DNA from: Methylibium rhizosphaerae
GTDB taxonomy: Bacteria > Pseudomonadota > Gammaproteobacteria > Burkholderiales > Burkholderiaceae_C
Assembly (NCBI RefSeq): GCF_006386545.1
Contig: NZ_SWAR01000009.1
Location: 99,714-163,713 of the forward strand
Length of the DNA: 64,000 nt
Reading direction: 5' to 3'
The notes under the pieces were generated by a model, which ran no database searches, was not told the DNA's origin, and was given only the letters and a program-made list of their open reading frames with translations. The position numbers were made by a program, and so were the translations under genes. Shown piece after piece: positions 1,660-59,595 of this stretch (its first letter is position 1; every line of letters starts with the position of its first letter).

Positions 1660-1736
<77 letters not shown>

Positions 1737-1789: not shown

Positions 1790-1815
1790 GGGTATCCACT
1801 TTGGGTATCCACCTT
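1790..1815 (+). repeat. Tandem 13-bp repeat overlapping the integrase start
   Basis: GGGTATCCACTTT at 1790-1802 is followed directly by GGGTATCCACCTT at 1803-1815 (one mismatch). The repeat runs into the integrase initiation codon. It may be a recombinase or regulator binding site. Confidence 0.45.
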
Positions 1816-3544
1816 GTCCGCCAAGCCATCACGACTGACGAAGAACCGCCACGGCACCTACTGCCTGCGCTGGATCGTCCCAGTCGGCCTGCGTTCTGAC
1901 GGCTCCCCGCGAGAGATCCGCTTCTCGCTGCGCACGACCGACCCGGCCCGTGCCCGTATTCTGGCGCTCGAGTTCAACCTAGCGCTCGAGCGAGTACGTG
2001 CCATGACCCGAGATAAGCATCCCCACGCCGGGGTGACCCCACTCACCGTCACCATCGGCCAGACGCAGTGGGACATCCGCGACGACAACGACCGTCGCCT
2101 CTTCGACCAGCTCATGCATGACAACCCGGACATCCGGCAGGCCCTCCTGCAGTCGGTCCGCTCGGGCGTCGCACCCGCCGAGGCGATGGCGGCCTTGGTC
2201 CAGCAGGTCAAGGCCGCAACGGTGTCGGCAGCATCCGTAGCCAATCCCATGCTGTTGAAGACGGCGATCGAAGTGTTCGAGCAGTCCCGCGGCACCCTCG
2301 ACAGCAACCGACGCAGTACCGCGGGGGAGAAACGCCGGACCATGGACCTGCTGCAGGCGCATCTCATCGCCCACGGCCGACCGGCCGATTCCACCCATGT
2401 GCACGAAGTCCGCCGCGACGAACTGCTCGACTTCGTCAATGCGTATGCCCAGCGGCCCGCAAAAGCCGGGATCGACGCCGAACCTTCGGAGCCGAATTCC
2501 AGCGGCAGCGAAACAAGCGCCGGCGGCACGGGCGGAACGTTGTCGCCCCGGACGGTTCTCAAGGCGATCAGCCACCTCGAGAACTTCTTCACCTTCGCTC
2601 TGGGTAAGAACATGGTGGCGTCCAGCCCTCTGGACAACGCGTTCTATGAATCGCTGGAAGGCCTGCGCAGGAAGGCCGCCGGCGCCAAGCGGAACAACAG
2701 CTACGACGGTTTCCCCGACAGCGACCTCCGAGCCATCTTTGAACCGGTGCGCTACCTCGCCAACCTTCGCGCAGCGGACGACTTCTGGACCCCGTTGATG
2801 GGCGCCTACCTGGGCATGCGGCTGGCGGAAATCGTGACCCGGAAGGTCAGCGACATCTACCTCGACCAGGAGCAGGGCGTCTACGTCGTCGCCGTCAGGC
2901 AGGGCAAGAACGCCAACTCGGTGCGCCATGTGCCGATTCCTGAGCCCCTCATCCGGCTTGGACTGCTCGACTACGTGGAGCACGTGAGGGCCCTGGGAGC
3001 CACCGCGCTGTTTCCCCACCGGGAACTGAACGAGACGCGCAAGGACGACCCCTCCAAGCATGTCAGTCGCGTCTTTGGTCTGCACCTCGACGACGTCGGC
3101 ATCACGGCGCCGGAGAAGGTGTTCCACAGCTTCCGACACACCGTCATCACCCGCCTTCACGTGCACGGCACGCCCGTCGGCGACGCGGAGCTCATCGTCG
3201 GCCACGCCGCGCAGGACGTCCACATGCGGCTGAGCAGCGCCTCGGGGCAGTTCGGCGGTAAGTCGTCCACGCACCTGAAGACCTACGTGAACGCCGGCGC
3301 CTACGGTCAGGAATCGCTGTATGGACGTCTCAAGGCACACCTGGAAAACAGCCTGCACTATCCGCTCGACTTCGGCGGCCTGCGCGAAGCCGCCCGGATC
3401 GTTCAAGAGCTGACTGTCAAAAAGCCGGACGGAAGCTTCTCTTCCGGCTGGCACACGAACAACCGGGCCCTTGCCCAAGCCATGCTCGACCGCGTCTGCG
3501 CGACTGCGAGCCAGCCCAACGGCGCGGTGGCCGGCAAAGCCTGA
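1814..3544 (+). CDS. Tyrosine recombinase / island integrase
   Basis: A 576-residue phage-type integrase that should catalyse recombination between the tRNA-Met 3' end and the circular island. Catalytic residues are in order: Arg in GMRLAEIVTRK (about residue 335), HSFRH (about 438-442), the GH of IVGHAA, and the nucleophilic Tyr in LKTYVNA (about 490). The N-terminal 300 residues carry the arm-binding and SAM-like core-binding regions. The start is TTG at 1814; the next residues (SRLTKNRHGTYCLRW) match the usual beginning of this family, and no ATG lies nearby. A Ser/Gly-rich insert at about 215-240 lies just before the core-binding helices. Position 78 bp from attL supports its role. The long antisense frame is a shadow. 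Confidence 0.92.
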   Translation: MSAKPSRLTKNRHGTYCLRWIVPVGLRSDGSPREIRFSLRTTDPARARILALEFNLALERVRAMTRDKHPHAGVTPLTVTIGQTQWDIRDDNDRRLFDQLMHDNPDIRQALLQSVRSGVAPAEAMAALVQQVKAATVSAASVANPMLLKTAIEVFEQSRGTLDSNRRSTAGEKRRTMDLLQAHLIAHGRPADSTHVHEVRRDELLDFVNAYAQRPAKAGIDAEPSEPNSSGSETSAGGTGGTLSPRTVLKAISHLENFFTFALGKNMVASSPLDNAFYESLEGLRRKAAGAKRNNSYDGFPDSDLRAIFEPVRYLANLRAADDFWTPLMGAYLGMRLAEIVTRKVSDIYLDQEQGVYVVAVRQGKNANSVRHVPIPEPLIRLGLLDYVEHVRALGATALFPHRELNETRKDDPSKHVSRVFGLHLDDVGITAPEKVFHSFRHTVITRLHVHGTPVGDAELIVGHAAQDVHMRLSSASGQFGGKSSTHLKTYVNAGAYGQESLYGRLKAHLENSLHYPLDFGGLREAARIVQELTVKKPDGSFSSGWHTNNRALAQAMLDRVCATASQPNGAVAGKA

Positions 3545-12254: not shown

Positions 12255-12968
12255 ATGGCAGGAGACAACCCGGCACGACTGGCGGTTCTCATCGACGCGG
12301 ACAACGCCTCGGCGTCGGTAGCGCGGGAGCTTCTCGAGGAAGTGGCCAAGTACGGCACGCCGACAGTGAAGCGTGCATACGGCGACTGGACCACGCAGAA
12401 CCTTGTCAGCTGGAAGGAAACCCTGCACCGGCATGCGATCCAACCGATCCAGCAGTTCGCCTACACCAAGGGCAAGAACTCCACCGACAGCGCGTTCATC
12501 ATCGACGCCATGGATCTTCTGTACGGCGGCAACCTCGACGGGTTCTGTCTGGTATCGAGCGACAGCGACTACACGCGGCTCGCGACCCGGCTCAGAGAAG
12601 CGGGCAAGCTCGTCGTCGGACTCGGAGAACGCAAGACTCCCGAACCATTCATCTCAGCGTGCGACAGGTTCATCTTCCTTGAGGTGCTCAAGCGTCCCGA
12701 GGGATCCGCGGCGCCTGCACAAGTCGCCGACGTGCCAGACCTGAAGGAATTGCTGACCCATGCCGTTCGCGAAACCATGCGCGAGCCGGGATGGGCGTCT
12801 CTTGCGGCGGTGGGCTCGTTCATCGGCAAGACCAATGCCTCCTTCGACCCGCGCAACTACGGCTACTCGAAGCTCGGCGAACTTGTCCGAAAGCAGTCCT
12901 ACCTCGAGATCAGGGAGACGCCCGACCAGTCGGGCTTTGTACATCTACACGTGAGGTTGAAGGGCTAG
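12255..12968 (+). CDS. NYN-domain nuclease with LOTUS (OST-HTH) domain
   Basis: 237 residues. The N-terminal 140 residues are a NYN/PIN-like ribonuclease domain of the LabA/MARF1 type: LIDADNAS (Asp14, Asp16), STDSAFIIDAMD and LVSSDSDYT give the acidic catalytic set. Residues 158-237 (LKELLTHAVRETM ... ASLAAVGSFIGKTN ... YSKLGELVRKQSYLEI) match the LOTUS/OST-HTH RNA-binding fold. The start follows an AGGAG site. Such proteins are predicted RNA nucleases; the bacterial substrate is unknown. It stands alone, divergent from the STAS operon. Confidence 0.85.
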   Translation: MAGDNPARLAVLIDADNASASVARELLEEVAKYGTPTVKRAYGDWTTQNLVSWKETLHRHAIQPIQQFAYTKGKNSTDSAFIIDAMDLLYGGNLDGFCLVSSDSDYTRLATRLREAGKLVVGLGERKTPEPFISACDRFIFLEVLKRPEGSAAPAQVADVPDLKELLTHAVRETMREPGWASLAAVGSFIGKTNASFDPRNYGYSKLGELVRKQSYLEIRETPDQSGFVHLHVRLKG

Positions 12969-14086: not shown

Positions 14087-14248
14087 GCAGTCCTGTCCCT
14101 GGTTCAATGGTGAGCAAGGTGTGGCGCATCCAGCACCTTAGGCATAACCGTTAGGTCTATAGGTGAACTTAAATGATACACAAAGGGCGCATTTCGATCC
14201 ACCGTTGATGTGGTCATGCTGCGCTCCTGAAACGGATGCTTGGGCCTC

Positions 14249-14506
14249 ATGCCCAAAGCCAAGCAGCCCCTCACTGCCAGACAAGTTTTCGCTCGGAACC
14301 TACGACGAGCGCGGCGGTTGCAGGACCTGACCCAAGAGCAACTTGCGCTTGAGGCTGACATGCCACGCGCGTACATCAGCCGGGTCGAGCGTGGCACGAT
14401 CAACATCAGCATGGACAACGCCGACATCCTGGCCAAGGCGGTGGGGGTTCCCCTGCGCGATCTAGTGGACCCGGCGAAATTTCAGGGCCTCGACGACGCT
14501 GCGTGA
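14249..14506 (+). CDS. XRE-family transcriptional regulator
   Basis: 85 residues: a single Cro/CI helix-turn-helix domain (ARNLRRARRLQDLTQEQLALEA, then RAYISRVERG as recognition helix, then NADILAKAVGVPLRDLV). ATG 14249 is chosen; TTG 14240 is upstream in frame. It converges on the LanM-like gene with only 18 bp between stops. It may regulate the RiPP operon or the divergent secreted-protein gene; the sequence does not decide. Confidence 0.75.
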   Translation: MPKAKQPLTARQVFARNLRRARRLQDLTQEQLALEADMPRAYISRVERGTINISMDNADILAKAVGVPLRDLVDPAKFQGLDDAA

Positions 14507-14526
14507 AGCCCGCATTAAGGGGGCTT
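14506..14526. terminator. Small bidirectional hairpin between convergent genes
   Basis: AAGCCC at 14506-14511 pairs with GGGCTT at 14521-14526, spanning the stop codons of the XRE and LanM-like genes. No clear T-run, so termination would be weak. Confidence 0.3.
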
Positions 14527-16084
14527 AGCTTGCGGAAACTTCCTCGCTCGTCGCTCGCCTGAGGCGCTGCTTCGTTGCCTTCTCCAGCCGCGCGCGAAGT
14601 GCTGAAATTTGCTCGTCCACGGCGGAGGGACTCAGCTCGTTAATTCGCAGACGCACAACTTCTAGCGGAGAGAGGTCAAACACACCCGGAACAACTGCAT
14701 TCCGCACAAAAAGGTCCCTGCTGCCCGCTCGCACGTAAGCGGCTGGAATATCGAGCGCGTCAAGATCAGCGGACTCTTGGTCAAGAATGGTCCGAGCAGC
14801 AGCCGCAAAGCCATCTGGTGCTTCTTGCAAATCTGCCTCGAGGTGTGATCGCCACGCCTCTGGTGCGTATGAGGAGAAGCAGATCCCCGCCATGCGCTCC
14901 GCCAACACCGCGGCGTAGACGCGAGTCGCCCGTAGCGGCACCCTGAATATATGTTCCGGCGATATGAGCGCAATTAGCTCGTCCTTATGGCAGAGCAGAC
15001 ATTCCGATGCGTGGCGGATACCATCTACGAAGCACTCAAAGTGCTCAACTGCCGGTGCGATGCGTCGTCCATCCACCTCCACCGCGCTTCGACTACGGTG
15101 CAAGCGTAGTGACCGTTGCTCCCAAGGAAGTTCAACCTGAAGGCCTGCATTCGGATCGGCGCGAAACATTACGTCGACGCAACTGAGGCCTCCGTAGTCG
15201 ATCTCCTGGCCGCCATAGTGGTCGAAGTTAAGGAAAAGGGACGTCACATCGTCATGCTCTTCGCGTGGGCGACGCAGAAGGTAAGCAGCGGCGGCAGCCG
15301 AGAACCTTGGCTGACACATCGTTTCACAGTCGACGACGACAGGCCCCTGCTTGGTGGCAATGATGTTCTCGAAGTGCAAATCTGACGCGTTCAGCACTCT
15401 CGCCACGGCGTACAGCACCCCACCGGAGAAGGCAAAGTGCTTCGCGGCTTTGGAATCAATTTTCTCCTCGTACTCCACTCCGGCCATCCAATGGTAGCCC
15501 TCTCTTATCAAGGCTTCAGGAGCCACCAACGGGAGGCCCCAATGGCGAAGATGACGAGAGACCTCGCCACAAAGTGCAGCCCCAGAGCCAGAGCGAGGTT
15601 TGTAGTACAGATCGCCATGGCCAACAAAAGCGAACCGCAGAACGTGTTGACCGTGATGTTTGTCTGCCGAAGCAATTCGCACCGAGCTCAACTCAACGCC
15701 ATGCCGCAGTAGCCCATTGCTTATTAGCAACTCCTGATCGAGCAAATAACGATGACCTGCTGTAGCGAACTCATGGACCAACTGACATGATTGCTCGTAA
15801 AGCGCGCGATCAAGCACCGGACAAGATCGGAGATTGCGCAGTATCCATTGTGCGAGCCCGATCCCCGATAAAGCAGCGAACTGACGCTCAATTGCATTCT
15901 TCAGCGGATCACATAACCGTCTGTAGAGCGCGATGAGTTCAATCCCCAAGCCGAGCTCTACGGCTTGATTTAAGAGTCCATCGCCCTTCAATTTCGCGAC
16001 GACAAGGTTTGCGATCTGCTTAAGACAATCCTCTTCCTCAGCCGAATCGACATCTGCACCACCGATAAGTGCGGAAATCAGCAA
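14525..16084 (-). CDS. LanM-type dehydratase domain protein, no cyclase domain
   Basis: 519 residues matching only the N-terminal dehydratase half of class II lanthipeptide synthetases (normally 900-1000 residues). Kinase-like residues are all present: YKPR (Lys162), DLHFEN (Asp235, His237, Asn240) and DCET (Asp252, Glu254), with the spacing of CylM as I recall it. RVPLRAT (Arg381, Thr387) fits the phosphate-elimination pair. The zinc-binding cyclase half is absent and no remnant follows before the XRE gene. The enzyme should phosphorylate and eliminate Ser/Thr of the precursor at 17219-17539, like stand-alone PoyF in polytheonamide biosynthesis. TTG 16084 starts it, overlapping the JmjC stop by 7 bp, with GGAG upstream. 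Lower GC than neighbours suggests recent transfer. Confidence 0.85.
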   Translation of the reverse strand: MLISALIGGADVDSAEEEDCLKQIANLVVAKLKGDGLLNQAVELGLGIELIALYRRLCDPLKNAIERQFAALSGIGLAQWILRNLRSCPVLDRALYEQSCQLVHEFATAGHRYLLDQELLISNGLLRHGVELSSVRIASADKHHGQHVLRFAFVGHGDLYYKPRSGSGAALCGEVSRHLRHWGLPLVAPEALIREGYHWMAGVEYEEKIDSKAAKHFAFSGGVLYAVARVLNASDLHFENIIATKQGPVVVDCETMCQPRFSAAAAAYLLRRPREEHDDVTSLFLNFDHYGGQEIDYGGLSCVDVMFRADPNAGLQVELPWEQRSLRLHRSRSAVEVDGRRIAPAVEHFECFVDGIRHASECLLCHKDELIALISPEHIFRVPLRATRVYAAVLAERMAGICFSSYAPEAWRSHLEADLQEAPDGFAAAARTILDQESADLDALDIPAAYVRAGSRDLFVRNAVVPGVFDLSPLEVVRLRINELSPSAVDEQISALRARLEKATKQRLRRATSEEVSAS

Positions 16085-17205
16085 GCTTTGTACTCCAACA
16101 CCCCAAGAGTGATAAGCCGACGACCGAGCTCTATTGCGTCTTCAATCGGCAGACCCAGCTCCTGAGCGATTTCACGCGGAGTGAACTCGCACTTCTCGTT
16201 GATCAGTTGCATAGCACGATAGTATCCAGAGGGGAAGGCCGTCTTAGATCGTTGCTCCGAACGGACGCCATAGTCGAATAGCAGGCCTGACACTTCAAGC
16301 GTGGATAGGTCGCGCATCAGCTTGTAGGTTATAGGAACCCCATTCACGCGCACGAGCAAGTCTTCGGCGACAAGTCGACCTACGCGCAGCATTGACCGTA
16401 ACCCATCCCGCGGAAGATAGATTCTTTTCTCGGCGAGATCGGCATCCAAACCTGAATTCGCTTCTAGTGTCTCGAGCGCTTGGCGAATCAGCTCGTCGCG
16501 TTCACCAGCCGTGGCAGGCAGCCGAAGTGCCTCCTGAAGCAAGCTCGCTTTGCGGACAGCTTGGACGATTCCGTCCGCGATCGTCGGCACATGCACCCCC
16601 GCGGAGAGATGCAATGATCCCGCCTGACCAGGCAGCCCCCGATGAATGTGACCTCGCGGAATGTAGAGCACATCACCCGGCGAAAGATCAGTGCGAAGGT
16701 ATTCGCGCGCGCACTGGTCCTGGTCGACCGGGGGTTTGTACATTCCCTCAATAGGAAAAGGCGTAGAGGGCCTAGCCACAGACCACGACTTGACGCCATG
16801 GACCTGGACCAGAAACACGTCAACTTCGTCGTAGTGATACCCGAAACAATGCTGCGACGAAGGGGACAAGAACGCAGTTACGAAGGTCCGAGCTCCGTCC
16901 GGGTAAGCGCGATTGATCTCTTGACAGAGGCGCGCGACGTCAGCGTTACAAAGGTTTAGCTTATTAAAGATGGCCGTATAGCCATCCGCCAATCCTTCGA
17001 AGATCCACTGAAGGGCGTCTTGTCTGGCCGCTGCGACAGTGGGAAAGATCTCCTTATCCGCACCGGCCATCCGAATATTCTGCGCGATCTGGCCGCGGTT
17101 CGCCCAAAGATCCACCTCGAAGTCAGCCAGTTCGTAGTGGAAATCTGGCAAAGCATCTTCAAGGCGAAAGGTCCGTGCGAATTCCGACGGGATGAAACCC
17201 ATCAT
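16078..17205 (-). CDS. JmjC-domain Fe(II)/2-oxoglutarate oxygenase with winged helix
   Basis: 375 residues. The JmjC fold lies in the N-terminal half: HYDEVDVFLVQVHG supplies the metal ligands His124 and Asp126 (HxD), and YIPRGHIHRG supplies the distal His (about 188) in the arrangement of bacterial ribosomal oxygenases (RoxA/YcfD). The C-terminal 60 residues (FTPREIAQELGLPIEDAIEL ... LGVLEY) form a winged helix also seen in that family. Known relatives hydroxylate the beta-carbon of residues in proteins. Placed 13 nt after the peptide precursor and overlapping the dehydratase, it is most likely a peptide hydroxylase of the RiPP pathway rather than a ribosomal oxygenase. Confidence 0.83.
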   Translation of the reverse strand: MMGFIPSEFARTFRLEDALPDFHYELADFEVDLWANRGQIAQNIRMAGADKEIFPTVAAARQDALQWIFEGLADGYTAIFNKLNLCNADVARLCQEINRAYPDGARTFVTAFLSPSSQHCFGYHYDEVDVFLVQVHGVKSWSVARPSTPFPIEGMYKPPVDQDQCAREYLRTDLSPGDVLYIPRGHIHRGLPGQAGSLHLSAGVHVPTIADGIVQAVRKASLLQEALRLPATAGERDELIRQALETLEANSGLDADLAEKRIYLPRDGLRSMLRVGRLVAEDLLVRVNGVPITYKLMRDLSTLEVSGLLFDYGVRSEQRSKTAFPSGYYRAMQLINEKCEFTPREIAQELGLPIEDAIELGRRLITLGVLEYKAC

Positions 17206-17218
17206 CCCGGGAATCCCA

Positions 17219-17539
17219 TTAGCAAATGATCGACGGCAGAATCAGCTGCGTTCCCGCGCGAGCAACTTCAAGCATCTCAGAACGCGTAAGCGTTTGGGCG
17301 ACCGGAGGAGACGGGATAATGAAATGAAGCCGTGGCATTTCATCAGCAACAAACACGTATTCCACACCAGGGTTGACCTGAATACCCTCGGCTTGGAGAA
17401 CGGCCTTTGGATCGGCGAGCAAGGCAGCCTTGAATCCCGGGTCTTGCCAGCATTTCAGCACTATGGCAGCCATCTGCTCTCGAATGCGAGCTTTCTGTGT
17501 GCCCAGCGGTTCACCCGGGACAAGCATGTTATGCGGCAT
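17219..17539 (-). CDS. NHLP/proteusin-type RiPP precursor peptide
   Basis: 106 residues. Residues 20-78 match the nitrile-hydratase-like leader family: CWQDPGFKAALLADPKAVLQ, then a strand region ending PRLHFIIPSPP, the typical end of the leader fold. The tail contains ARAG (93-96), a double-small-residue motif of the kind cut after leaders, which would release the ten-residue core TQLILPSIIC (97-106). The core begins with Thr, as in polytheonamide precursor PoyA, and ends in a Ser-x-x-Cys motif like the AviCys ring site of some lanthipeptides. The start ATG 17539 has GGGAG about 6 nt upstream. First gene of a three-gene operon. No protease or exporter gene is adjacent. Confidence 0.82.
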   Translation of the reverse strand: MPHNMLVPGEPLGTQKARIREQMAAIVLKCWQDPGFKAALLADPKAVLQAEGIQVNPGVEYVFVADEMPRLHFIIPSPPVAQTLTRSEMLEVARAGTQLILPSIIC

Positions 17540-17672
17540 GTTGAGCTCCCATGTTTGGACGAGCCACAGTAGTTTGTGTAAACGAACATGTCAAGCTGGC
17601 GCAACCGCGTCACGTCATGCAGATTGATGACCCGCAAGTCATAAGGCCCCATCGAGGCGTTCGACTCTCCCT

Positions 17673-20483
17673 TCATTCCTCGAACTCCGCCGACGAAAAC
17701 TTCAGCACCGAAGCGTTCTCCTTCGCTGCCCGTTGGGTCGCGTCATCAAATACGCCGCCGCCTGCGTCGGCCTCGATCTCCACCCGAAGCTGAACGCTGA
17801 CCCCAGGCTTCGTAGTGAACAGCATGACAAGCTCATCGTAGAGGTCGTTGAAGCCTTTCTTTCCCAGCACGGGATCCAACGTCGTTGACGCGTAGAAGCG
17901 TCGCTTGACCGAAGAGGGCGTCGGAGGCTGTGCGTTGGAGCCGTTCTCCACGCTCGGCGGGGTCACCGGCGGCGGCACCACAGCCCCACCGCCCCCAGGT
18001 ATTGGTGACGTAGGGCTTCGCTCTCGAACCGAGTTCGCAAACGATGCAGCCGCGGAAGGCTCGATTAGCAACAGCGAGCTGTCCAGGATCGGCGTCGTGC
18101 GATTTCCGTAGACAAAACCGACGAAGCCGTCACTGTCCTTGCCCTGCGCCAGACCAAAGAAGTCGCGACTTTCGGCGCCAGCCGCCAGCGTGCTCTGGAA
18201 CACGCGATCATCCCGCAGGCGTGGCAGATAGAGCTGGTGGCAGGTCTGCTGCCATACACCCAGTGCGCCGACGTCCGTCTGTTCCGGCTTCCAGAACCAG
18301 TTGCGCAGCACCGTGGCGAGATGAACGGGCGCCCACGCCCCAATCACCAGTTCGTTCTCCTTCAGCACACGATCGAGCTCATCACCGAAGTTCGCCGTGC
18401 CTGGGTTGAGGGCGAAGTGCTCCCACTGCACATCTGAAATGCCCTTGCCGGGCCGCGCCTCCTGAGAGGGCGCCAGAAGCCACTTATAGGCCTCACGGAT
18501 CGTCCTACGCACGGTGTCAACCGCCTCTCCCAGGCTGCGCTCGGCCTGCCGCGCTTGGAGTTGGTCGAGGTTCAGCCGCAGATCCTTCACGTCATTGACG
18601 ATGGACTGCCAGGCCAGCATCGAGCGGACTTGGTCCTTCAGGCGAGACACGGTCTCGAAGTCGGCCGCGACGAAGAGCACCCGGTTCTGCTTGAATCGTG
18701 GCTGGTCGCCACGGCCTTTTAGGATCTCGGTCGCACGATCAATCGCCAGGCTCTGCCCACTGCGGCTGAATGCCGCGTCAGGGGGCAGAACGACCAAGCG
18801 AAGCATCCAATCGTCGGGCACGTCGGCACTTGGCGTGAACACGTGCACCGCATCGAATGAGGCGCTCGTGATGCTGCGCTGCAGCCGATCGCGGACGGAA
18901 GGGAAGACGTCCTCCTTGTCCTGGAACCGGCGTTTCCGGTCCTCCATCTCACGCCTCAGATTCGCGCGCACGTCGAACCAGAAGCGGTTGTTGCCGCTGT
19001 TCAGGTACTGAAGCCTATCGCCCAGGCGCCGCAAGGCATCTTTGAACAGGCTCGGCTGCTGTCCGGGCTGAGCGACGCCCAGGACAACGCGCTCTAGCTC
19101 AATGCCACGCACAACTTGACCACCATTGGTCGGCGCGCTCCCAAGAAAGATGGCGCGTGCAGCTCGGCGACATGCTTGCACGCTGCCCAAGCGCGGATCG
19201 CGACGCTCGATCTCGGTCGTCTCGGCACGCTCGCCGTCAATGTCCTTCTCCAGTACCGGGTCCCACCCCTGCGGCAGGTAGTAGATCGCCTCGTTCCGGA
19301 CATCGGCGTCGTACAACGGCAAGCTGCCGGGCATGATCAGCAGGTCGGTGTTGTTGGCATTCCAAAGCCGGTGGATGACCTTGGCCATCAACTTCAGCAC
19401 GCCTCGCGTGCGCTGGAAGTTGTCGAGGGACGACCAGTCCTCGTACAAGCGGTCGAACACCTCCGGATGGATCGGGTACGCCGACAGCAGACGGTCGTGG
19501 TACCTGGATTCCTGTGTCTCGTGCGGGAAGTCGTGCGCGTGACCAACGTACAGGTCCGCGAACGCACGGCACACCTCCTCTGCCGCTAGTTGGTCGCCAA
19601 TGGAGGCAAACAGTCGGCGGCGGACGATCTCGAATGCTTCGCTGGACGACACCGGCTTCCACAGCGCCTGCACGCGACCGAAGTAGTGGGCCAGAGCGCC
19701 CAACGCCTTGACCCCTCGCTGGCTTCCCGCCTCCTTGTCAGACTCCGGCAGGGAAGCCAGAAGGATGGCCGTCGGCACTGCCTTCAGGGCCTCTGTGAGT
19801 GCCTGGATGAAGCTCAGGTTCGAGTCGAAACTGCCGCCGCTGAGAGCCTTGCCCTCCTCGAACTGGCGGATGTAGGCAACCAGCTCGTCGATCAGGATCA
19901 CGCAAGGCGCATACCTCGACAGCAATTGCTCCAGCACCGCCTTGCCGGGCGAGGTGCCAGACTGATCGGCATCACGCACCAGCTCATAGGCCTCAGCCTT
20001 GCCCAGTTGCCAGGCCAGTTCGCCCCACAAGGTCTTCACGGCTAGGCCGTCATAAACCGCAGGCTGATTCGGCGACTGGCGGATGCCGTCGAGCACGACG
20101 ATACGGGCAGGCTGTAGGTCGACGATGCCCGCGCTCTCCAGGATGGCCGGGATTCCTTGCAGGTTTGTCGCCGGCACTGCGCCCTTGGCCAGGTGGTATA
20201 CGGCCAGCATCGTGTGCGTCTTGCCGCCACCAAATGCTGTCTGCAGCTGGATGACCGGATCGCCGCCCTTGCCAGCCAGGCGCTTGACCACGGAGTCGAG
20301 CAGCAGCCGCATGCCCTCAGTAATGAACGTGCGCTGGAAGAACAGCGCGGCGTCCTGGTACTCGGCCGACGCGGTCTTGTCATGCACGCGTGACAGATCC
20401 GCCGCGAACTCGGCTTGCTGGAAAGTGCCCTTCAGCACGTCCGAATGCGGAACGGCGACTTCACGCCACGGCTTCAATCCCAT
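17673..20483 (-). CDS. DUF499 AAA-type ATPase of defence operon
   Basis: 936 residues of the COG1483/DUF499 family. Walker A is AFGGGKTH (about 83-90) and Walker B is [12 protein letters not shown] (about 213-222). A Pro/Gly-rich linker (about 838-870) leads to a C-terminal domain. Family members occur in defence islands next to DUF1156 methylases and SNF2 helicases, and are distantly like the P-loop protein of BREX. The role is inferred as an ATP-driven motor or sensor in phage restriction. It is the last gene of the eight-gene operon, starting 3 nt after the Hsp70-like stop, so a tight complex with that protein is plausible. Confidence 0.85.
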
Positions 20484-20486
20484 TTC

Positions 20487-22253
20487 TCAACTCCCCGAGA
20501 TGCGCAAGTTCCCGGCCACATAGCCGTGGTGCCGTGAACCGCCGCCACCGAAAGTTGGTGGTGCTGTCAGCGTTTCCGGCATCGTCTCTGCTGCGCCGCC
20601 GATGGCCACGGCCAGCTGCGGATACACCGCCTCCAGCTCAACCGGCATGTCGTTCATCCACTGCGGCCGCGGATCGACAGCCTGGCGCAGGATGCGGTGC
20701 CCCTTGACGTCGATCGGGCCCTTACCAAGGACTTGCATCATCGGCAGCGGCGAGCTGCCGCCGGTCAGCACCACGTGCAAGCGCACACCATCCATCGCCA
20801 GCCATCGCAGCCATGTTTCGTCGACAGCGTCCAGCGACTTCTTGAAGCCGGCCTCCACCGCCTGGGCGAAACGCATCACCTTGTCGTCCGCCAGAAAGTC
20901 GTCGAGCTTCACCTCGCCCACGGTGCCGTCTGCCAGGGCGTACTCGAGCTTGCCCGTCTTGAACAGCGTCTCCTTCAGGCCGCGGATCCGACGATTCAGG
21001 TCCGCCAGGATCAAGCGGCCCGAGTTGTCGCTCAGGTCGATGGACTCCCGCTGCGCGATGTATCCACGCAGCAGCCCGTCCACCTTGTCGCCAGCCTGCA
21101 TCAGGCCGTGGATCGACGCGGGCACCTGAAAAACGCGGATCTCGCCGTCCTCCGGCCGGTGGGTCGAGATGAACAGGCCGAAGTCAGTCGTGCCGGCGCC
21201 GACGTCAACCACCATGAAGGCGTCGCGCAGGTTCTCGCTATCGGCGATCGCACCGGCGGCCACAGCCACCGGCTCTGGCACGCCGTCATCGATGAGGTAT
21301 TCGGGCCGCTTGCCCACGGCCTTGATCTGCTCGACAGCCGACTTCAGTTCGCCAACCGGGATACCGCCAGCCCAGCGATCGCTGAAGGTGTCGGCCAGGA
21401 TCTGCGCTTCGGCCAGCATGCTGCGCATCAGTCCGTCCGCCCACTTCGCCTGCGCCGCATCCGGCCAGCACGGACGGGCGAATCGGCGCTTGGCATACCG
21501 CGGTTCCTTCACGCTCTGAAAGGCGAGCGAACGCTCGGCCACGTCCGTCAGGTAGGCGAGATAGATGCGGATCAGGTCGCCTTCTGTTAGGCGAAAGCCC
21601 GTAGGGTTCATCGCGGGCTTGAGGACGCAGGCCTCGCCGTCGAGGTTGCCTTCCCTGCGCAGGCTCAGCCAGCCCTTGATCGAGTCCAGCCGCTCGCGAC
21701 CGGAGTCCACCAGGTCCTGGCTCTGCTCGATCGCTTCGAAGCCGAAGTAGGCCTTGCCATCGTCACCAATGAACACCGAGGAGGGCAGCGTATAGCCCTG
21801 CCGGCCAGCCTCGGTGCCCAGCTCCAGGTCGAGGTACTTGTCGGGGAAAACGGTCGCGAAGGCCTTCGACATCGCAGTTCCGAAGTCGAGGCACAACAGC
21901 ACTTCAGGATCGGTGACCTCCTCGCGCTCGATGGAACCCAACGCGAGCGAAACCTGCGGCAGCGAAGCAATCTTCGGCGTTGAAGTCGTCTTGTCCTCGA
22001 TGTTCACCGAGGTCGGTGCATTCGGAATCGGAGATGTCCCGTTGCCGCCGGTCACCGCAGCCGAAGCTGGGCTGGGCGCATTCGCCACCGGTTCCGCAGC
22101 CGCCGACGCATCGGCGTCGCCACCTGCCTGCAGCGCAAGCAACGCCAGCTGCAGCGCCTTGCGCTCCAGCGACGATACGGCACCAATAACCTGGTCGCGT
22201 TCGATGCGCTCCATCAGGCTCGCAATCAATATCGCAGCAGTGTTCTTGTCCAA
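20487..22253 (-). CDS. Hsp70/actin-fold ATPase of defence operon
   Basis: 588 residues. The actin/Hsp70 nucleotide-binding signature is present: CLDFGTAMSKAF (phosphate 1, about 121-132), VDVGAGTTDFG (phosphate 2, about 344-354) and VVLTGGSSPLP (adenosine motif, near 525). Unlike DnaK it has no substrate-binding domain after the ATPase, but an N-terminal extension of about 118 residues: a helix (ERIERDQVIGAVSSLERKAL), then an Ala/Pro/Thr-rich linker. Start is TTG 22253 with AGGAGG upstream. Genes on either side encode a possible GrpE-like protein and a DUF499 ATPase. I infer an ATP switch controlling the defence complex. A broken relative lies at 12995-13165. Confidence 0.83.
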   Translation of the reverse strand: MDKNTAAILIASLMERIERDQVIGAVSSLERKALQLALLALQAGGDADASAAAEPVANAPSPASAAVTGGNGTSPIPNAPTSVNIEDKTTSTPKIASLPQVSLALGSIEREEVTDPEVLLCLDFGTAMSKAFATVFPDKYLDLELGTEAGRQGYTLPSSVFIGDDGKAYFGFEAIEQSQDLVDSGRERLDSIKGWLSLRREGNLDGEACVLKPAMNPTGFRLTEGDLIRIYLAYLTDVAERSLAFQSVKEPRYAKRRFARPCWPDAAQAKWADGLMRSMLAEAQILADTFSDRWAGGIPVGELKSAVEQIKAVGKRPEYLIDDGVPEPVAVAAGAIADSENLRDAFMVVDVGAGTTDFGLFISTHRPEDGEIRVFQVPASIHGLMQAGDKVDGLLRGYIAQRESIDLSDNSGRLILADLNRRIRGLKETLFKTGKLEYALADGTVGEVKLDDFLADDKVMRFAQAVEAGFKKSLDAVDETWLRWLAMDGVRLHVVLTGGSSPLPMMQVLGKGPIDVKGHRILRQAVDPRPQWMNDMPVELEAVYPQLAVAIGGAAETMPETLTAPPTFGGGGSRHHGYVAGNLRISGS

Positions 22254-22303
22254 AGTTCCCTCCTCGACGACTTGTCAGCGATCGGGCCGAAGTGGCCCGC
22301 GAT

Positions 22304-23770
22304 TCACTCCACCAATCCCTTGGTCACCACGTCTCCCAGGCCACCATCTGCACGCTTGCGCACGATGGCAGGCTGCTTGACAACCATGCGCTGCCGCGGC
22401 GAACCTCCGACGACGGTGAAGAACTTGGTCGACATCTCGACCTCCTCCCCCGGCACGCCGTACAGGTCCAGTCCCCGCAGCGCGGCAGCCTGCTCCACCT
22501 GGATGGCCAGCGCCTGCACGCCATCCAACAAGGCCTGCGTGGACGGTGCCAGCGCGGGGTCGTAGATCTCGAGGTTCGACACCAGCGGATCTCGCAGCCC
22601 ATCGCGAAGCTTGCGGGCCTGGCGCGCGGCCTGTAGCGCGAGCCCGATACTCTCGTCGGCATTGCTGGCAGCGGCCTCCACGGCGGAACTGCTGGCTTGC
22701 CGCACCGGCCGCACCCGGCCGTGTTCCAGCCAGTCACGCACCTCTTCGTTCAGCTCGGGATGTCGGGCGGCGAGTTCACGGGCCACCGCGCGGGCCCGCT
22801 CAGGGTGGTTGCACAGCACCTCCAGCTGCGCAAGCAGGGCTTGATCACGCTGCCCCTGTCGACCCAGAAGTAGAAGCGCCTCGCTTACGTCAGTAATCAG
22901 CCTATCCAGCGGCTTCTGGAGCTCGTTGGGCCAGGAGCCCCCGCCCACCAGTCGTCGACAGTAATCCACTACCCGGTACATCGTTGGATCCGCGACGACC
23001 GAGATGCGCGTACGGACGATGTCGTGGACAAGAAGCAGCGCTTGCCGGCACAGGTCCACCTGTGCCTTGTCTTCCTGCGGTTTGCCAACCGCCATCAGCG
23101 GGGCACTGACCCACTCGTACAGCGCGATGCCTAGCTCGTCGCCAGCCTCGAGCTCGCTCTCGAGCAGTGCCTCCCGAATGGCCTCGATGGCCGAAGCAAG
23201 TCTCCGCGCCATCGTGTCACCAGGTGCCTGCGTGTCGGGTCGGTACGCTTCAAAGGCTTTCGCGAGACGGCGCAGCACTTCGGCGAGGCTGCCCGAACCG
23301 GCCATCAAAGCCGACACCAGCTCGAGGCGTGCCTTGTCCGCCGATGCCTCCTCGGCAATGGCTCGGGCCTGGTAGTCCGGCAGCCATGGCGCTGACATCT
23401 GGGCACAGGCGCGCGCTAAGTTGAGCCGGTCGTCCCCCTTAGCCAGCAGCTGCATATTCGGCAAGGGCTCGGAGAAGGCAGGGCGCAATTGCTCCACCAT
23501 CTCAGGCGCCCAGCGCTTGACGATCTGCACTAGGCGGATGCACTCGGCGATCGCAAGCAGTCGATGACCGGGCTCCGAGGCCGTAAGCGCCTGCTGTAGC
23601 AAGTGGCGTCGGCCGGCAGCGACTGCCGGATCCTCGTATTGCTTAGGCAGAAACTTGGTCGTGCTGAGCGTCGACAGGGCTTCGTATCGATCCTCCGGCG
23701 ATGCAGCCGGATCGGCGAACCTCGCCAGGGCCGATACCGCCTCCGAACTGCTTAAGGTATTGGTCGCCAT
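22304..23770 (-). CDS. Helical defence protein with possible GrpE-like C-terminus
   Basis: About 488 residues from ATG 23770 (MATNTLSSS), 10 nt after the methylase stop. Most of the chain is predicted helical, with repeat-like segments suggestive of an alpha solenoid. The last 65 residues (from LRGLDLYGVPGEEVEMSTKF) change to strand-rich sequence with the pattern of the small beta domain of GrpE nucleotide exchange factors. As the next gene encodes an Hsp70-like ATPase, I infer this is its dedicated exchange or scaffold partner. The GrpE similarity is by eye only and could be wrong. Confidence 0.55.
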   Translation of the reverse strand: MATNTLSSSEAVSALARFADPAASPEDRYEALSTLSTTKFLPKQYEDPAVAAGRRHLLQQALTASEPGHRLLAIAECIRLVQIVKRWAPEMVEQLRPAFSEPLPNMQLLAKGDDRLNLARACAQMSAPWLPDYQARAIAEEASADKARLELVSALMAGSGSLAEVLRRLAKAFEAYRPDTQAPGDTMARRLASAIEAIREALLESELEAGDELGIALYEWVSAPLMAVGKPQEDKAQVDLCRQALLLVHDIVRTRISVVADPTMYRVVDYCRRLVGGGSWPNELQKPLDRLITDVSEALLLLGRQGQRDQALLAQLEVLCNHPERARAVARELAARHPELNEEVRDWLEHGRVRPVRQASSSAVEAAASNADESIGLALQAARQARKLRDGLRDPLVSNLEIYDPALAPSTQALLDGVQALAIQVEQAAALRGLDLYGVPGEEVEMSTKFFTVVGGSPRQRMVVKQPAIVRKRADGGLGDVVTKGLVE

Positions 23771-23780
23771 GCGCTGCCCC

Positions 23781-26663
23781 TCACATGTCCAGCGAGGTTT
23801 GGGTACCCACGGGGCCCGCATCCTGCGCGGCCGACTCGATGCCTGCCCATGAACCGATCAGCTCGTTGTAGGCCCGCGCATCCTCGGCCTTGCCCTGCCG
23901 TTCGCACAGCGTGTACAGGCGATAGGCCAATGCACGGATGGGCTCAGCGCGCGCTGGCATGCGCGCGAGCAGCGCGCCGGCGGCCGACTCGCCGCCCTTG
24001 GCGAGCGCACCGATCAGCTGATGCAGAGCCTCCCAGATCGGCGTCCGGGTGTCAGCTTCAGGCGACCAGTCGGCCGGCATCTCGGCCCAGCGGAGAAGGC
24101 GCAGATCGCCACCCGCGCTCTCCACCACGCCCGACACGCGCAGACCTTCCACACTCGTGCCCTTGGCACGGGCCAGCACGTCAGCCTCGCCGAACTTTCC
24201 CGATGCCCAGCCACGATGCTCGAACCAGGCCAGGCAGAACTGGGTATCGTGGTCGAAGTCGTCTTCGGCCAAGAAGCGGTTGATCAGCTGCAACGCGGTC
24301 TTCACGCTCATCTTGCTGCCGTCGGCTTCCAGTACGGCGCCATACTGACTGAAGATGGCCATGCCAGGGCCGATGATGGCTTGACTTAGGTCCACCGGCG
24401 CCACGGGAGAATTGACGCCGCCGCGCGTCATCTCGTCCAGCGCGTCCGGGAGCGCGGCGTTCAGCTCGCGAATGAAGGCCCGGCGGCCGATGGTGGGTGC
24501 GTCGTTGGCGCGTTGGCGGCAGACCAGCACGATGCTGGATGCCAAGGCGTTGGAACCGATGCCCCGTGACCGTGCACTACGCTCGGTGCGCATGGGCCAC
24601 GTACCTGTCACCGCAAAGCCTGCATCCAGGACCGCCTGCAGAAAGGTTTCCCAGCCAGTGCTGGACGTTCCGGACTCAACTTCGGTCTCGCTCTGCTTGA
24701 ATGCATAGTAGATGGATACCGGAAAGGCGGGGTGCGCCTTTTCGGCCAGGTTGTGCATTGCCTGGGTCATTCCATCAAGAAAGAACGCTTCTGCCTCCTC
24801 AGTGCCGCCGTGGCGGTAAGGAGTAGCCACAAGTTCGTCGGCCTTTGGCACAGCCACCGTGGCGTACAGATTCGCGTAGATGGGTTTCAGGCTCCTGCGC
24901 AGCCAGACGTAGAAGAAGTCGGACAAGTCGGCATAGCCGATGTTGTCGTAATAAGGCGGATCGGTTGAGACCACCTTTGCTGCAGAGACGCTTTGAAGCT
25001 GCGCGCTGTCCTGCACAGCTGTGCCTTGGTATCGGACCTCCAGCCTATCCAGCACACGGCACATACTTCCCACTGTGGTCACGAAATCCCCGGCAGCATC
25101 GGAGAAAACGGAAGATTCGGCGAAGTCCCAGACCATCGGAATCGCTTGCCGGCGGAAAAGATGCTGCGTCTGATCAGCGCTCGGCCCCCATTGGCAAAGC
25201 GCGTTTTGCGCATCTGCTAGGCGACTCACCGCCAGTCCGAGGTAGACACCAACGGCTTCGGCGTAGGCAGTCGCGGCTTGTCCACCCGACTCCAAAGACA
25301 GGCCATCATCAGCAATTCCAGCGGCCAGAGAATCTGAACGGCAGCAGGCGATGACGTCATGCACTAGATCGGAGAAGGTACTTAGCGCGACGAGTTGGCG
25401 CGCGGTGAACAGGTCACTCCACTGCGCCATGCCGTAGTTTCCAACGCGGAATCCGAGGGCTTGCTGCAGGAACGCAACGTCCGGCTTCCACGTAGGCGTC
25501 GCATTCGCCGCGACGGTTTCGTGTTCGACAGTTGGTGTCAGATAGACGCGCCCGCGCTTCCCCTCGGCCACGATGGCCATCAACCGCGCACCCATGCGGC
25601 CGGCCTGACCCTCAGCCTTGATGTAGTCACCACTAATTGGCGCGCCCGACAAGAGGCAGAGGAAGTTGGCTCCGCGCCCTCCAGCTTTGGTTCCTGCTTC
25701 CGCAGCCTCGCCCGGTTTACCCATCCGCACGGTGAAGCGGTAGTCGCCCCCCGTAACCAGCGGCTGCACATACGCCTGCTTGCCTTCCTTGCTAGACAGC
25801 ACGAAGCTTGAGACCAGAGGCACCGCCACGTCAGCAAACGCCGGATTGGGGCTCTTAACCGTGCGCGCCCACAGCCATGCTATGACGGTGAGTCTCTCGC
25901 CCAGGTAGGGCTTCAGGTCCGGCCGCTCGGCCACCATCTCCGCCGTCACCTCGATCTTCGGGTACAGGTGTCCGATACGCTTGTAGGCCTCGGCGCGCAT
26001 CCAGGCGCCGTAGCGTCGAACGTCCTCGGCCAGGCCGCGCGCACCGCTCCAGTCCTCACCGAACTTACCCTGCTTGTCGCCCTCCAGGCGAGGCCCCACC
26101 GGTGCGCGGCCAGCGAACTTGGGCGGAATCTCGATCATCGCCTTGTTGATCGTCACTGCCACCGGGTTCAGGTCGCTAGCCCAGCTCTCCAGGCCCAGCC
26201 TCTGCGCTTCCAGCGGCAGCGCACCGCCTCCAGCAAAGGGGTCGTGGAAGGCCGGCAGCTTGTCCGGGTTGAACAGATCGGCGGCCTGCGGATGGCCCCT
26301 GTTCAGCCGGCAAGTCTCGACCCAGCTCTCGCGGATAGCGGCGCGGGCGCGCTCGAGCACCGCCTCGTTGTTTGTGTTCTCCCACTGCACCAGGTCTTCG
26401 ATGATCTTGAACAGCTCTTCGCGTTTGGCGTCGGCCTGGATCTTTGTCATGCCCGCAAAGTAGCCGCGCTCGCCGCCTGGGTCATTCACCATCTGCGCAA
26501 AGATCACCGCCCTCGCCGCGGCGAGCGGCCGACGCGCCCACCACAGGTGCAGCGTGCTCGGATGACCGTGGCGGATGGATTTCTCACGCGCCGACGCCGT
26601 ATTGATCACGTCCAGGGGCAACGCCACCTCGATGAGCTTTTTGGGAGACTTGACAGGGGTCAT
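23781..26663 (-). CDS. DUF1156 / COG1743 adenine-specific DNA methylase
   Basis: 960 residues. The DUF1156 N-terminus is clear ([14 protein letters not shown] ... [20 protein letters not shown]). The SAM-binding motif is [15 protein letters not shown] (about 139-153) and the catalytic motif is DPPYYDN (about 566-572), typical of N6-adenine methylases. It probably marks host DNA so that the helicase/nuclease members spare it. The start ATG 26663 overlaps the PtuB stop (ATGA), and the gene is inside the single long operon. Length and layout are normal for the family. The recognition site cannot be read from the sequence. Confidence 0.88.
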
Positions 26664-27385
26664 ACGAGAGCGGGGGCGTGCGCCTGCAAGGCGGCTTCAG
26701 CTGCGGCGCCGAAGAACTGGCGGGTGAGGGAGAAAAAACGGCTTAGCTTGCCGTTCACGGGGACAAGGTCGACGGCGGCCAGGTCAGGAAGGCTCCAGTT
26801 CTTCTGGCGATGCTCTTCGTACAGCGCGTCCAGTTCGTCCCACCATTGGCGACGACGGGTCAATAGGAAAGGGCTGTTGAGGTTGAGGATGTCGATGGTG
26901 TACTGCGCCTGGTCTTGTTCTGCCGGATTCAACCCCAACGAGGGAACAACCCGCCCATCGGACAAGAAGGCAAAGTAACGGCGGCAGTCAGGCCGATGAC
27001 ACGACACGAAGCGCAGCATGTCGCAGGCAGACTGCTTACCGGGTGCATGGCCGCCAAACACGACGTAGCCTTGCGCTTTGAAGGCCTGCAAGTCCTGGGC
27101 GCTATCGAGTGCACTCGCGGCAAGGTTCGCATAGTCGAAGGTACGCGGCGGGTTCTGGCTTTTGTTCTCGACGTGCTCGATGTGGTAGCCCAGGCCCTCC
27201 TCGTCAGCCCGCAGCTCGCTATAGCAGCAAAGCTGGAACTGCTCATCAAGCAGGCACTGCAAGACAGCTGGTTTGTGCCCGAACGAGCCCCAGCGGCTGG
27301 TGGCTTGTTGATGCGTCTGAGGCGGATTGGTGTGGGCTTGGCCTAGGTGGTACCCGCCGCCGCCCTGCTTCTGGATGCTCCTCAT
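26660..27385 (-). CDS. ptuB: PtuB-like HNH nuclease (Septu-type)
   Basis: 241 residues from ATG 27385, which overlaps the PtuA stop (ATGA); longer starts would lie inside ptuA. The sequence begins [10 protein letters not shown] and carries an HNH-type motif: CCYSE (about 53-57), [12 protein letters not shown] (His68, His71) and FDYANLAAS (about 83-91). This is the pattern of TIGR02646/PtuB proteins, the nuclease partner in Septu defence and in some retrons. It should cut nucleic acid when released or activated by the PtuA ATPase. The following methylase gene is coupled by a 4-nt overlap. Confidence 0.82.
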
Positions 27386-28746
27386 TGCTTCAGCGCCTCT
27401 TGACGCTGAATGCTGCGCTGCAGTCGCTGCAGTTGGGGGTGCTGTACGCCCAGAATGTCCGTCAGGCGCTGCAGGAGAGCACGAGCCTCTGTCTCCTGGT
27501 AACGCCCCTGGTCCACCCACTCCGTAAGGCGCTGCAGATCGGCCTTCTCCGCGACAGGCGGCTGGGGATCGACGAGCATCACACTGTGGAGCACGTCGCC
27601 GCTCGGTTCGCCATAGGTCATCGCTAGCGGCGGCACGGCGACGACCTTGCCCCTGCTGTCTTGCCCGATCACCCGGATGTTCTCGCGCTTCACGGTGCTA
27701 AGCACCTGCGGACTATGTGTGGTCACGATGAATTGCGTGTTCCGGAAGGTCTGCATCAGGTCGGTCAACACGCGTTGCTGCCAGGATGGATGCAGATGCA
27801 AGTCCACCTCGTCAATCAGAGCGATAGCGGGGAGGTCCAGCGGATTCATGACCTGCATGCCGTTGGGCAGCAGCCTGCTGTTGGCCTGCGCCATGCGGCG
27901 CGCTAAGTCCATCGTTAGGCCCAGCACCACCCGATAGCCGTCGCTGAGTTGGCTGATGCGCAGCGTTCGAGTGGTCCCGTCCGGCATCCTGCGGTCGATA
28001 ACGAAGCGAAGTGGGCCGACCTCGGTGCGGGGCCTGCTGAAGCCTTCCGGCAGCAAGCGCACGATGGCCGTACGTACAGCGCTCAACTCGGGATGCTGGA
28101 AGTCAAAGTCGCGCCGCGTCTCCCGCTCGCGGCGTTCGACGTCCTCCATCGCATTGAACCACTCGAACGCAGCACGGAACCGAGAGTTCGGATCGAGCGC
28201 TCCGAAGAGCGCATCGAAGCGGGAGAAGTTCTTTCTGAAGCCGCGGCGGCGCTGCACCTCTTCGCGAATCGCGCGGTTGGTGCCGTAGTAGGCGATGACT
28301 GGAAGGAAGTAGGGCTGCTGGTCGGCCTCGGCCTGGACAAGACCCAGCGTGAAGTCGTCCAGCTCTTTCAGCCCGCGGTTAAGCAGGGCTTCATGCTCCT
28401 CGGACAGCACCTTCTTGATGGTGGCAGCACCGACAGCACCATCGCGTTTACGACCAGTGGCCCATACAACAGGCACTTCGTCACGCGTGCGGGCCTCCCA
28501 CGCCAGCATCATGAAAGGCTCTCGGCGCTCGCCGTCTGCAACTCGAAGATCAGTGTCCTTGGTCGTGAGGCCGCCAATCCCCGGCAGCTTGGTGAGGTAG
28601 CGTCCGAAGCCGATCGCGATCGCGTCCAGCACAGCGGTCTTGCCGGCGCCGTTCTCGGCAATGATGACCGTGAGCCGCTTGCCGAAGTCGATGGTCAGAT
28701 CCTCAAAGCATCGGAAATTGCGAAGGTGAAGGTGTTCTAGTCTCAT
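27382..28746 (-). CDS. ptuA: PtuA-like SMC/ABC-type ATPase (Septu-type)
   Basis: 454 residues with ABC/RecF-like ATPase motifs: an N-terminal FRCFEDLTIDF, Walker A AENGAGKT (about 30-37), signature QLSDGYR (near 264), Walker B ALIDEVDLHLHP and H-loop VTTHSPQV. There is no TOPRIM domain, so it is not an OLD nuclease. The C-terminal 80 residues are helical, as in PtuA of Septu systems. With the adjacent HNH gene it forms a complete PtuA-PtuB pair nested in a larger defence operon. A 115-bp gap and a GC hairpin precede it, so it may have some separate control. Confidence 0.85.
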   Translation of the reverse strand: MRLEHLHLRNFRCFEDLTIDFGKRLTVIIAENGAGKTAVLDAIAIGFGRYLTKLPGIGGLTTKDTDLRVADGERREPFMMLAWEARTRDEVPVVWATGRKRDGAVGAATIKKVLSEEHEALLNRGLKELDDFTLGLVQAEADQQPYFLPVIAYYGTNRAIREEVQRRRGFRKNFSRFDALFGALDPNSRFRAAFEWFNAMEDVERRERETRRDFDFQHPELSAVRTAIVRLLPEGFSRPRTEVGPLRFVIDRRMPDGTTRTLRISQLSDGYRVVLGLTMDLARRMAQANSRLLPNGMQVMNPLDLPAIALIDEVDLHLHPSWQQRVLTDLMQTFRNTQFIVTTHSPQVLSTVKRENIRVIGQDSRGKVVAVPPLAMTYGEPSGDVLHSVMLVDPQPPVAEKADLQRLTEWVDQGRYQETEARALLQRLTDILGVQHPQLQRLQRSIQRQEALKQ

Positions 28747-28803
28747 GTCCCGGCTCCGGATAACATGGCCGCATGCCCCGTCAGAGATCGCATCTCTGGT
28801 CCG

Positions 28804-28832
28804 ACGCCTCCCTGGTGGAGGCGTTTCTCTTT
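28804..28832 (+). terminator. Hairpin with T-rich tail between helicase and ptuA
   Basis: ACGCCTCC (28804-28811) / GGAGGCGT (28817-28824) with a T-rich tail only on the plus strand. No plus-strand gene precedes it. On the minus strand it could act as an attenuating or mRNA-stabilising hairpin inside the operon. Confidence 0.35.
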
Positions 28833-28861
28833 GATGGCTCCGTCCTTCATCTGCGTCCGCA

Positions 28862-41631: not shown

Positions 41632-41648
41632 TCCCTGAAGCGCCACCA
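41632..41648 (+). repeat. attR, right attachment repeat of the island
   Basis: Exact copy of the 17-nt tRNA-Met 3' end at 1720-1736. The remaining tRNA sequence is absent, so this is an att site, not a second tRNA gene. Confidence 0.9.
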
Positions 41649-59518: not shown

Positions 59519-59595
59519 CGGGGTGTAGCTTAGCCTGGTAGAGCGCTACGTTCGGGACGTAGAGGCCGGAGGTTCGAATCCTCTCACCCCGACCA
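59519..59595 (+). tRNA. tRNA-Pro (anticodon CGG)
   Basis: 77 nt with encoded CCA. Acceptor CGGGGTG pairs with CACCCCG; the anticodon stem CTACG / CGTAG encloses TTCGGGA (anticodon CGG). An integrase gene follows, so its 3' end is probably an attachment site. Confidence 0.95.

Follow-up and report, generated by a model that had tools for sequence, protein, structure and literature searches.

The polytheonamide and pythonamide pathways are described as pairing a precursor that carries a nitrile-hydratase-like leader (PoyA, EreA) with Fe/2-oxoglutarate (2OG) oxygenases (PoyI, EreI); PoyF is a LanM dehydratase domain, and the ere cluster, like the locus considered here, is short (account cited in part: PMC9505594). 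Here we describe a proteusin-like operon of Methylibium rhizosphaerae, which lies in a window of 64,000 nucleotides (the whole stretch of DNA analysed; RefSeq assembly GCF_006386545.1, contig NZ_SWAR01000009.1, positions 99,714 to 163,713). Three neighbouring genes, for a precursor peptide, a JmjC protein and a LanM-type protein without a cyclase, constitute a genuine co-inherited unit of the type that makes ribosomally synthesized and post-translationally modified peptides (RiPPs). On balance, and with modest confidence, we favour the reading that the three together make one fixed peptide, in which Ser103 becomes dehydroalanine and a tail residue is hydroxylated by the JmjC enzyme. The operon differs from the polytheonamide and pythonamide systems in having neither an epimerase nor a methyltransferase, in using an oxygenase of the ribosomal oxygenase (ROX) type of JmjC proteins, and in its core of about ten residues, which is fixed and ends in Cys.

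A leader related to nitrile hydratase also characterizes the NHLP and NHLP-Burk precursors (TIGR03793 and TIGR03795), and NHLP cores are reported to be hypervariable after a Gly-Gly site (PMC2887384, as excerpted). In contrast to these families, the present precursor has an invariant rather than a hypervariable tail, is partnered by JmjC and LanM proteins, and scores under both family cut-offs.

A co-inherited three-gene operon

The precursor gene (17219..17539, minus strand; open reading frame (ORF) call and profile search) encodes 106 residues, comprising an NHase-alpha/NHLP-like leader and a short tail. It is separated by a 13-nt gap from the gene of a 375-residue JmjC_2 (PF08007) protein of the ROX-type Fe/2OG oxygenase family (16078..17205, minus strand; profile search and fold comparison). 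The JmjC gene overlaps by 7 bp (16078..16084, minus strand) that of a 519-residue, cyclase-less LanM-type dehydratase with a DUF4135 domain and a TTG start (14525..16084, minus strand; profile search). The spacings, and the lengths of the precursor and the LanM-type protein, reproduce those of the original prediction, which had also listed the enzymes missing from the operon: none of the three genes encodes a radical S-adenosylmethionine (SAM) epimerase, methyltransferase, YcaO protein, cyclase, protease or exporter. No flavoprotein (LanD-like) family matched any of the three proteins. A promoter search of 14200-17800 gave no sigma-70-like candidate, a result of little weight.

Caballeronia mineralivorans (L002) has the same triplet in the same order; the gap is 15 nt, the 7-bp overlap is kept and the LanM gene again starts with TTG. 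The 7-bp JmjC/LanM overlap recurs in Agaribacterium (L003), where the contig ends ahead of any visible precursor. Across 12 contigs, JmjC and LanM identities rise and fall together (r = 0.970; 0 of 9,999 permutations). Because the genes recur together and the two enzymes co-diverge, the triplet is more than a chance arrangement, and the neighbourhood check suggested with the original prediction thus came out in its favour.

Besides the window's own proteins, homologue searches, two of which scored only the approximately 8,000 candidates that share most words, returned 25 LanM-type proteins, 15 precursors and 59 JmjC proteins, with 18, 15 and 18, respectively, in the close family. The names given by the source include Cupriavidus, Ralstonia and Pseudomonas and, more distantly, Salmonella. 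With the window excluded, 17 of the 31 homologue contigs, which are told apart by their lengths here and in the identity correlation, are shared by two or more of the three homologue tables, and three contigs (6,925, 108,245 and 644,978 nt) by all of them. Co-location of most homologues is deduced from these tables; precursor DNA was seen in its context in the window and in L002 only.

A near-invariant C-terminal tail

All 16 precursors, including that of the window, end in QLILPSI[I/L]C; the nine residues are identical in 15 and one precursor has Leu at position 105. We place the predicted core, TQLILPSIIC, at codons 97-106 (17222..17251, minus strand), of which residues 98-106 are nearly invariant in the alignment. 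Eight of the last nine columns are invariant, compared with 32 of the first 97, and mean column conservation is 0.993 in the last nine against 0.807 before the tail, a level of conservation matched in 10 of 20,000 column shuffles. Pairwise identity among the precursors is 60-92%. Comparison of the window with Caballeronia gives three synonymous and no nonsynonymous changes in the ten core codons, against 39 synonymous and 22 nonsynonymous changes in the 96 leader codons.

The tail stays unchanged though same-contig LanM identity drops to 47-48% (P0013 with P0030) and same-contig JmjC identity to 45% (P0059 with P0035). Nitrile-hydratase-related precursors normally vary their cores freely, whereas here nine residues are constant while the enzymes diverge; the implication is that the target of the product is defined and shared. 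That the product would be fixed speaks for one particular target or partner and against a diversified antimicrobial. This is the main point that we add to the original prediction: with a near-invariant tail, one fixed product is likely, whereas the products of related gene sets generally keep changing.

Within the tail, the only conserved residues that could be modified are Ser103 (codon 17231..17233, minus strand) and the C-terminal Cys106 (codon 17222..17224, minus strand), each present in all 16 precursors. In the alignment Ser103, the predicted site of dehydration, is the only invariant Ser or Thr of the whole precursor. Residue 97 varies among the 16 precursors (8 Thr, 6 Glu and 2 Val) and was rejected as a conserved site of dehydration.

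Two enzymes with intact catalytic residues

The 519-residue protein matches DUF4135 (E 4.9e-40), and its alignment to the LanM family TIGR03897 covers positions 90-527 of 932; no LanC-like cyclase domain was detected in it at E ≤ 0.1. On a profile alignment to CylM (5dzt), in which counterparts were counted by hand, the CylM residues D252, H254, K274, D347, H349, N352, D364, R506 and T512 correspond to D141, H143, K162, D235, H237, N240, D252, R381 and T387. All nine are invariant in the 17 aligned LanM-type proteins (fragments P0017 and P0019 were left out). In CylM, Ala mutants of D347, H349, N352, D364 and K274 are reported to lose dehydration entirely or nearly so, and D252, H254, R506 and T512 mutants to build up phosphorylated intermediates (PMC4550811, in the portion cited). 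With kinase and elimination residues present and the cyclase absent, the protein looks like a competent, stand-alone dehydratase similar to PoyF, as originally proposed.

The 375-residue protein was likewise recognized correctly as a JmjC protein with an HxD...H motif. It matches JmjC_2 (PF08007; E 5.3e-23), and alignment to NO66 places H124, D126 and H188, which we take to be the iron ligands, and K139, presumably the 2OG-binding Lys, at positions that are invariant in 17 of 17 sequences (fragments P0060 and P0061 were left out). The folds nearest to its structure model are those of NO66 and MINA, which are protein hydroxylases. The C-terminal part of the predicted model may form a winged helix of the kind found in RiPP recognition elements (RREs), with strands within residues 284-325 and helices at 326-337, 343-350 and 354-367. 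A JmjC protein, BipG, has been reported as a RiPP ornithine hydroxylase (PMC12707348, cited in part). It is the enzyme family, then, that predicts hydroxylation of the tail by the JmjC protein.

Proposed pathway and alternatives

In the pathway that we favour, both enzymes would recognize the leader, the JmjC protein perhaps through its winged-helix-like part. The LanM-type enzyme would phosphorylate Ser103, probably as its single target, and then eliminate to dehydroalanine, and the JmjC enzyme would hydroxylate one residue of the tail. Because the operon encodes neither a protease nor an exporter, we propose that a host protease would release the product. The genome has four C39 peptidase matches elsewhere, and such peptidases also occur in 8 of 14 control genomes; we argue for no link to the operon, since the Gly-Gly site is missing from the precursor. 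In a genome search with TIGR03796 (NHLM export), which did not extend to TIGR03794 and TIGR03797, none of the matches was over the cut-off. The dehydrated and hydroxylated short peptide of the original prediction remains the predicted product of a minimal RiPP-type operon, and is narrowed to a single conserved tail Ser, with hydroxylation read from the enzyme family only. As the pathway takes no more than three genes, a laboratory strain could make the product for a mass-spectrometric readout in one experiment.

Several observations weigh against this pathway, beginning with the precursor. The match to the TIGR03793 leader (E 2.8e-12) reaches 46.3 bits, under the curated cut-off of 50.9, although Pfam NHase_alpha (PF02979) is passed at 28.5 bits (cut-off 27.2). 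No Gly-Gly motif precedes the core; residues 95-96 are Ala-Gly in 15 of 16 precursors and Ser-Gly in one. With a sub-threshold leader score and no Gly-Gly site, release of the core is unexplained. The leader also often has Ser or Thr at position 85 (14 of 16) and position 14 (11 of 16), so Ser103 is not necessarily the sole site of dehydration, and the structure model of the precursor is weak (mean predicted local distance difference test score (pLDDT), 64.5). The model of the JmjC protein is of moderate quality (mean pLDDT, 80.7; predicted template modelling (TM) score, 0.61) and superposes on NO66 with a TM-score of 0.49 and a root-mean-square deviation of 8.4 (VIA-align). Moreover, PbsQ, a JmjC-related protein of another RiPP cluster, is reported to have given no further modification on co-expression (PMC12257519, in the part cited). 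As to co-inheritance, 14 of the 31 homologue contigs appear in one table only, among them the 135.8-kb contig of P0018, a Salmonella LanM relative with 39% identity. Because each homologue cluster was represented by its longest contig only, the tables are weak evidence either way and leave strict co-occurrence neither shown nor excluded.

Given its score, its lack of a Gly-Gly site and its fixed core, we class the precursor as proteusin-like by sequence and do not file it under TIGR03793; the NHLP/proteusin assignment of the original prediction thus survives as a resemblance of the leader. The suffix of NHLP-Burk precursors is short and can have Cys as its last residue, and no Gly-Gly motif is listed for them (PMC2887384, in the excerpt cited). 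For these reasons the nearest kin of the precursor may lie among NHLP-Burk, despite a TIGR03795 match of just 13.5 bits (cut-off, 41).

The best-surviving alternative, which we nevertheless consider unlikely, takes the JmjC protein to be a C-terminal oxidative decarboxylase. The resulting enethiol of Cys106 would add to dehydroalanine 103, giving a ring similar to aminovinyl-cysteine (AviCys) without LanD or LanC. Ser103 and Cys106 are invariant at the very C terminus with S-x-x-C spacing (16 of 16), and the terminal Cys is retained though no cyclase is encoded. The same S-x-x-C spacing is found in epidermin. Oxidative decarboxylation of a ribosomal peptide at its C terminus is reported for a plant Fe/2OG enzyme (PMC12871766, cited in part), and spontaneous closure of a lanthionine is described for another class (PMC12291118, likewise). 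Against this, the known Cys decarboxylases of this kind are flavoproteins, AviCys closure in those systems is described as aided by LanX (PMC12291118), and the folds nearest to the JmjC protein belong to hydroxylases. If the JmjC enzyme does decarboxylate the terminal Cys, the operon would offer a new route to AviCys-like rings; if it hydroxylates, the operon would still be a very small proteusin-like pathway. A bolder version, in which JmjC replaces LanD and three genes yield a fixed AviCys-type nonapeptide that serves the element carrying it, possibly as an intracellular anti-phage agent, must be held less likely still, because only location supports the phage role.

More doubtful than either is the idea that the leader is kept and the precursor matures into a small stable protein, in which Cys30 (codon 17450..17452, minus strand) and the modified tail (dehydroalanine 103 or Cys106) are joined or cooperate. 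All 16 aligned precursors have Cys30, at a position that is Ala in the NHLP and nitrile hydratase motifs, and the precursor is better conserved (mean column identity, 81%) than JmjC (68%) or LanM (61%). The invariant Cys30 and the well-conserved leader leave room for an uncleaved product, a further point against the favoured pathway, as do the missing Gly-Gly site, protease and exporter. However, conserved leaders are normal within NHLP families (PMC2887384, as far as cited), and the precursor model is too weak to judge contacts.

Two further explanations are very improbable. A phosphopeptide made by a kinase-only LanM-type enzyme, modelled on phospeptin, in which the cyclase-less LanM-like EmbM is reported just to phosphorylate (PMC9505594, in part), was dropped as a main reading because EmbM is without the elimination residues, whose counterparts D141, H143, R381 and T387 are retained here in 17 of 17 proteins. 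A JmjC protein that descends from and still acts as a ribosomal oxygenase, placed in the operon without relation to the precursor, would fit a sequence and fold closest to NO66/MINA and YcfD, but not its co-divergence with LanM or the overlap coupling in three loci, and the genome has a second, weaker JmjC match (C107; E 1.4e-6) that is probably the ordinary ribosomal oxygenase.

Distribution of the family

The family is rare among named species. In four overlapping draws of 199, 399, 369 and 398 genomes, each including G000, a clear family member was present only in G000. The precursor was found in 1 of 369 genomes and the LanM-type protein matched in 4 of 399, the other three at 8.3e-21 or weaker and in frames of 702-1,120 residues. 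Some JmjC match at E ≤ 1e-3 was present in 155 of 199 genomes (best outside G000, 4.5e-21), and 8 of 398 genomes matched at E ≤ 1e-20 (best outside G000, 2.5e-24), these matches being confined to the catalytic part.

Phage or plasmid carriage of the operon was considered and was not seen in the plasmid, phage and viral-contig searches. Translated searches (tblastn) with the JmjC protein gave no plasmid record at E 1e-20 and no phage record at E 1e-5; in viral contigs, pattern matching picked out 3 stretches for the precursor and 15 for LanM, none of them a relative. A blastn search of Escherichia coli genomes with the triplet found nothing. The distant LanM relative P0018 matched 11 plasmid records, all of Gram-positive genera and annotated as LanM, LcnDR2 or DUF4135.

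Of 80 pattern matches in a scan of genome contigs, three were relatives of LanM, in L002, L003 and, more distantly, Spirosoma. At the Spirosoma locus (L004:7858-11275), four NHLP-like ORFs with Gly-Gly, recognized by eye, lie upstream of a stand-alone LanM-type dehydratase (22% identity); no JmjC was noticed in its ORF list, which had no hidden Markov model check. Elsewhere, at L053:3103-5935, consecutive genes, none of them for LanM, encode a Gly-Gly-containing NHLP precursor (83.4 bits), a P-loop protein (AAA_33) and a JmjC_2 protein. Because L053 supplies a second NHLP-JmjC pairing, that link is wider than the present family, which is distinguished by its LanM partner and fixed tail. The combination of JmjC with a cyclase-less LanM on such an element had seemed undescribed. 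The exact NHLP, JmjC and LanM set was indeed not found in a literature search over open-licence PubMed Central papers; the NHLP-JmjC pairing is not unique. No clear RiPP context was apparent by eye around the distant JmjC relatives of L051, L052 and L054. Beside the JmjC_2 relative of L052 is a short Gly/Asp-rich ORF on the opposite strand (L052:4107-4556), possibly a candidate substrate.

A probable defence island

The operon had been placed on a defence-bearing mobile element, and the surroundings agree with this. A 17-bp direct repeat, which occurs exactly twice on the strand read, lies at the 3' end of tRNA-Met (1720..1736, plus strand; probable attL) and again at 41632..41648 (plus strand; probable attR). 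This repeat pair and the tyrosine integrase gene at one end (1814..3544, plus strand) mark a probable tRNA-Met island of 39.9 kb at window 1660-41648. The island carries HmaA, HmaB, HmaC, PtuA and PtuB of Septu, and PDC-M61A and B. The Hma system occupies 17673-32389, with PtuA/PtuB and the candidate PDC-M61A/B lying between its genes, and the triplet comes after HmaC. The G+C content of the triplet (0.56) is lower than that of the rest of the island (0.633) and of the window outside it (0.673), so the triplet probably arrived separately.

The Caballeronia triplet lies approximately 4 kb from GajA/GajB-like genes and approximately 2 kb from a tyrosine integrase whose sequence is divided between two ORFs (L002:1142-6438). 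Two loci do not suffice to associate the operon with defence. Class II lanthipeptide genes have been reported near defence genes (PMC12715929) and anti-phage lanthipeptides have been reported (PMC12360287), in the parts cited. A phage-related role is possible from the defence-island setting, which makes the operon a concrete candidate for the question of RiPPs in phage defence.

Other neighbours include an HTH_3 regulator gene (14240-14506) that is convergent with the LanM gene and 18 nt from its stop, and, in the same island, a gene for an NYN-domain protein with an OST-HTH/LOTUS domain (12255-12968). Another integrated element perhaps begins at 59519-61502, where tRNA-Pro precedes a second DUF6538 tyrosine integrase.

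Comparison with known systems

Beyond the polytheonamide, pythonamide and NHLP systems, the operon shares single features with several others, each described here as far as the cited extracts go. As in the anti-phage lanthipeptides of Actinomycetota, its RiPP genes lie among defence genes (PMC12360287); it differs in having no cyclase and in being known from genes alone. Phospeptin (EmbA, EmbM) likewise pairs a precursor with one cyclase-less LanM-like enzyme, but the EmbA leader is of the Nif11 type with Gly-Gly and is given as having no Cys, and the elimination residues kept here are described as missing from EmbM (PMC9505594). The class Va AviCys lanthipeptides (LanK, LanY, LanD and LanX) resemble the operon in Ser/Thr dehydration, a C-terminal Cys and, in the account cited, the absence of LanC (PMC12291118); the operon has neither LanD nor LanX, and decarboxylation in it is hypothetical. 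Biphenomycin BipG is, like the present oxygenase, a PF08007-type JmjC enzyme that acts on a RiPP precursor, in a cluster described as using radical SAM and MNIO enzymes and no LanM (PMC12707348). Dehydrazoles (CcaA, CcaM) share with the operon an NHLP precursor and a DUF4135 dehydratase, whereas in CcaM a cyclase-like domain is fused on, and a YcaO enzyme acts before it (PMC10676384).

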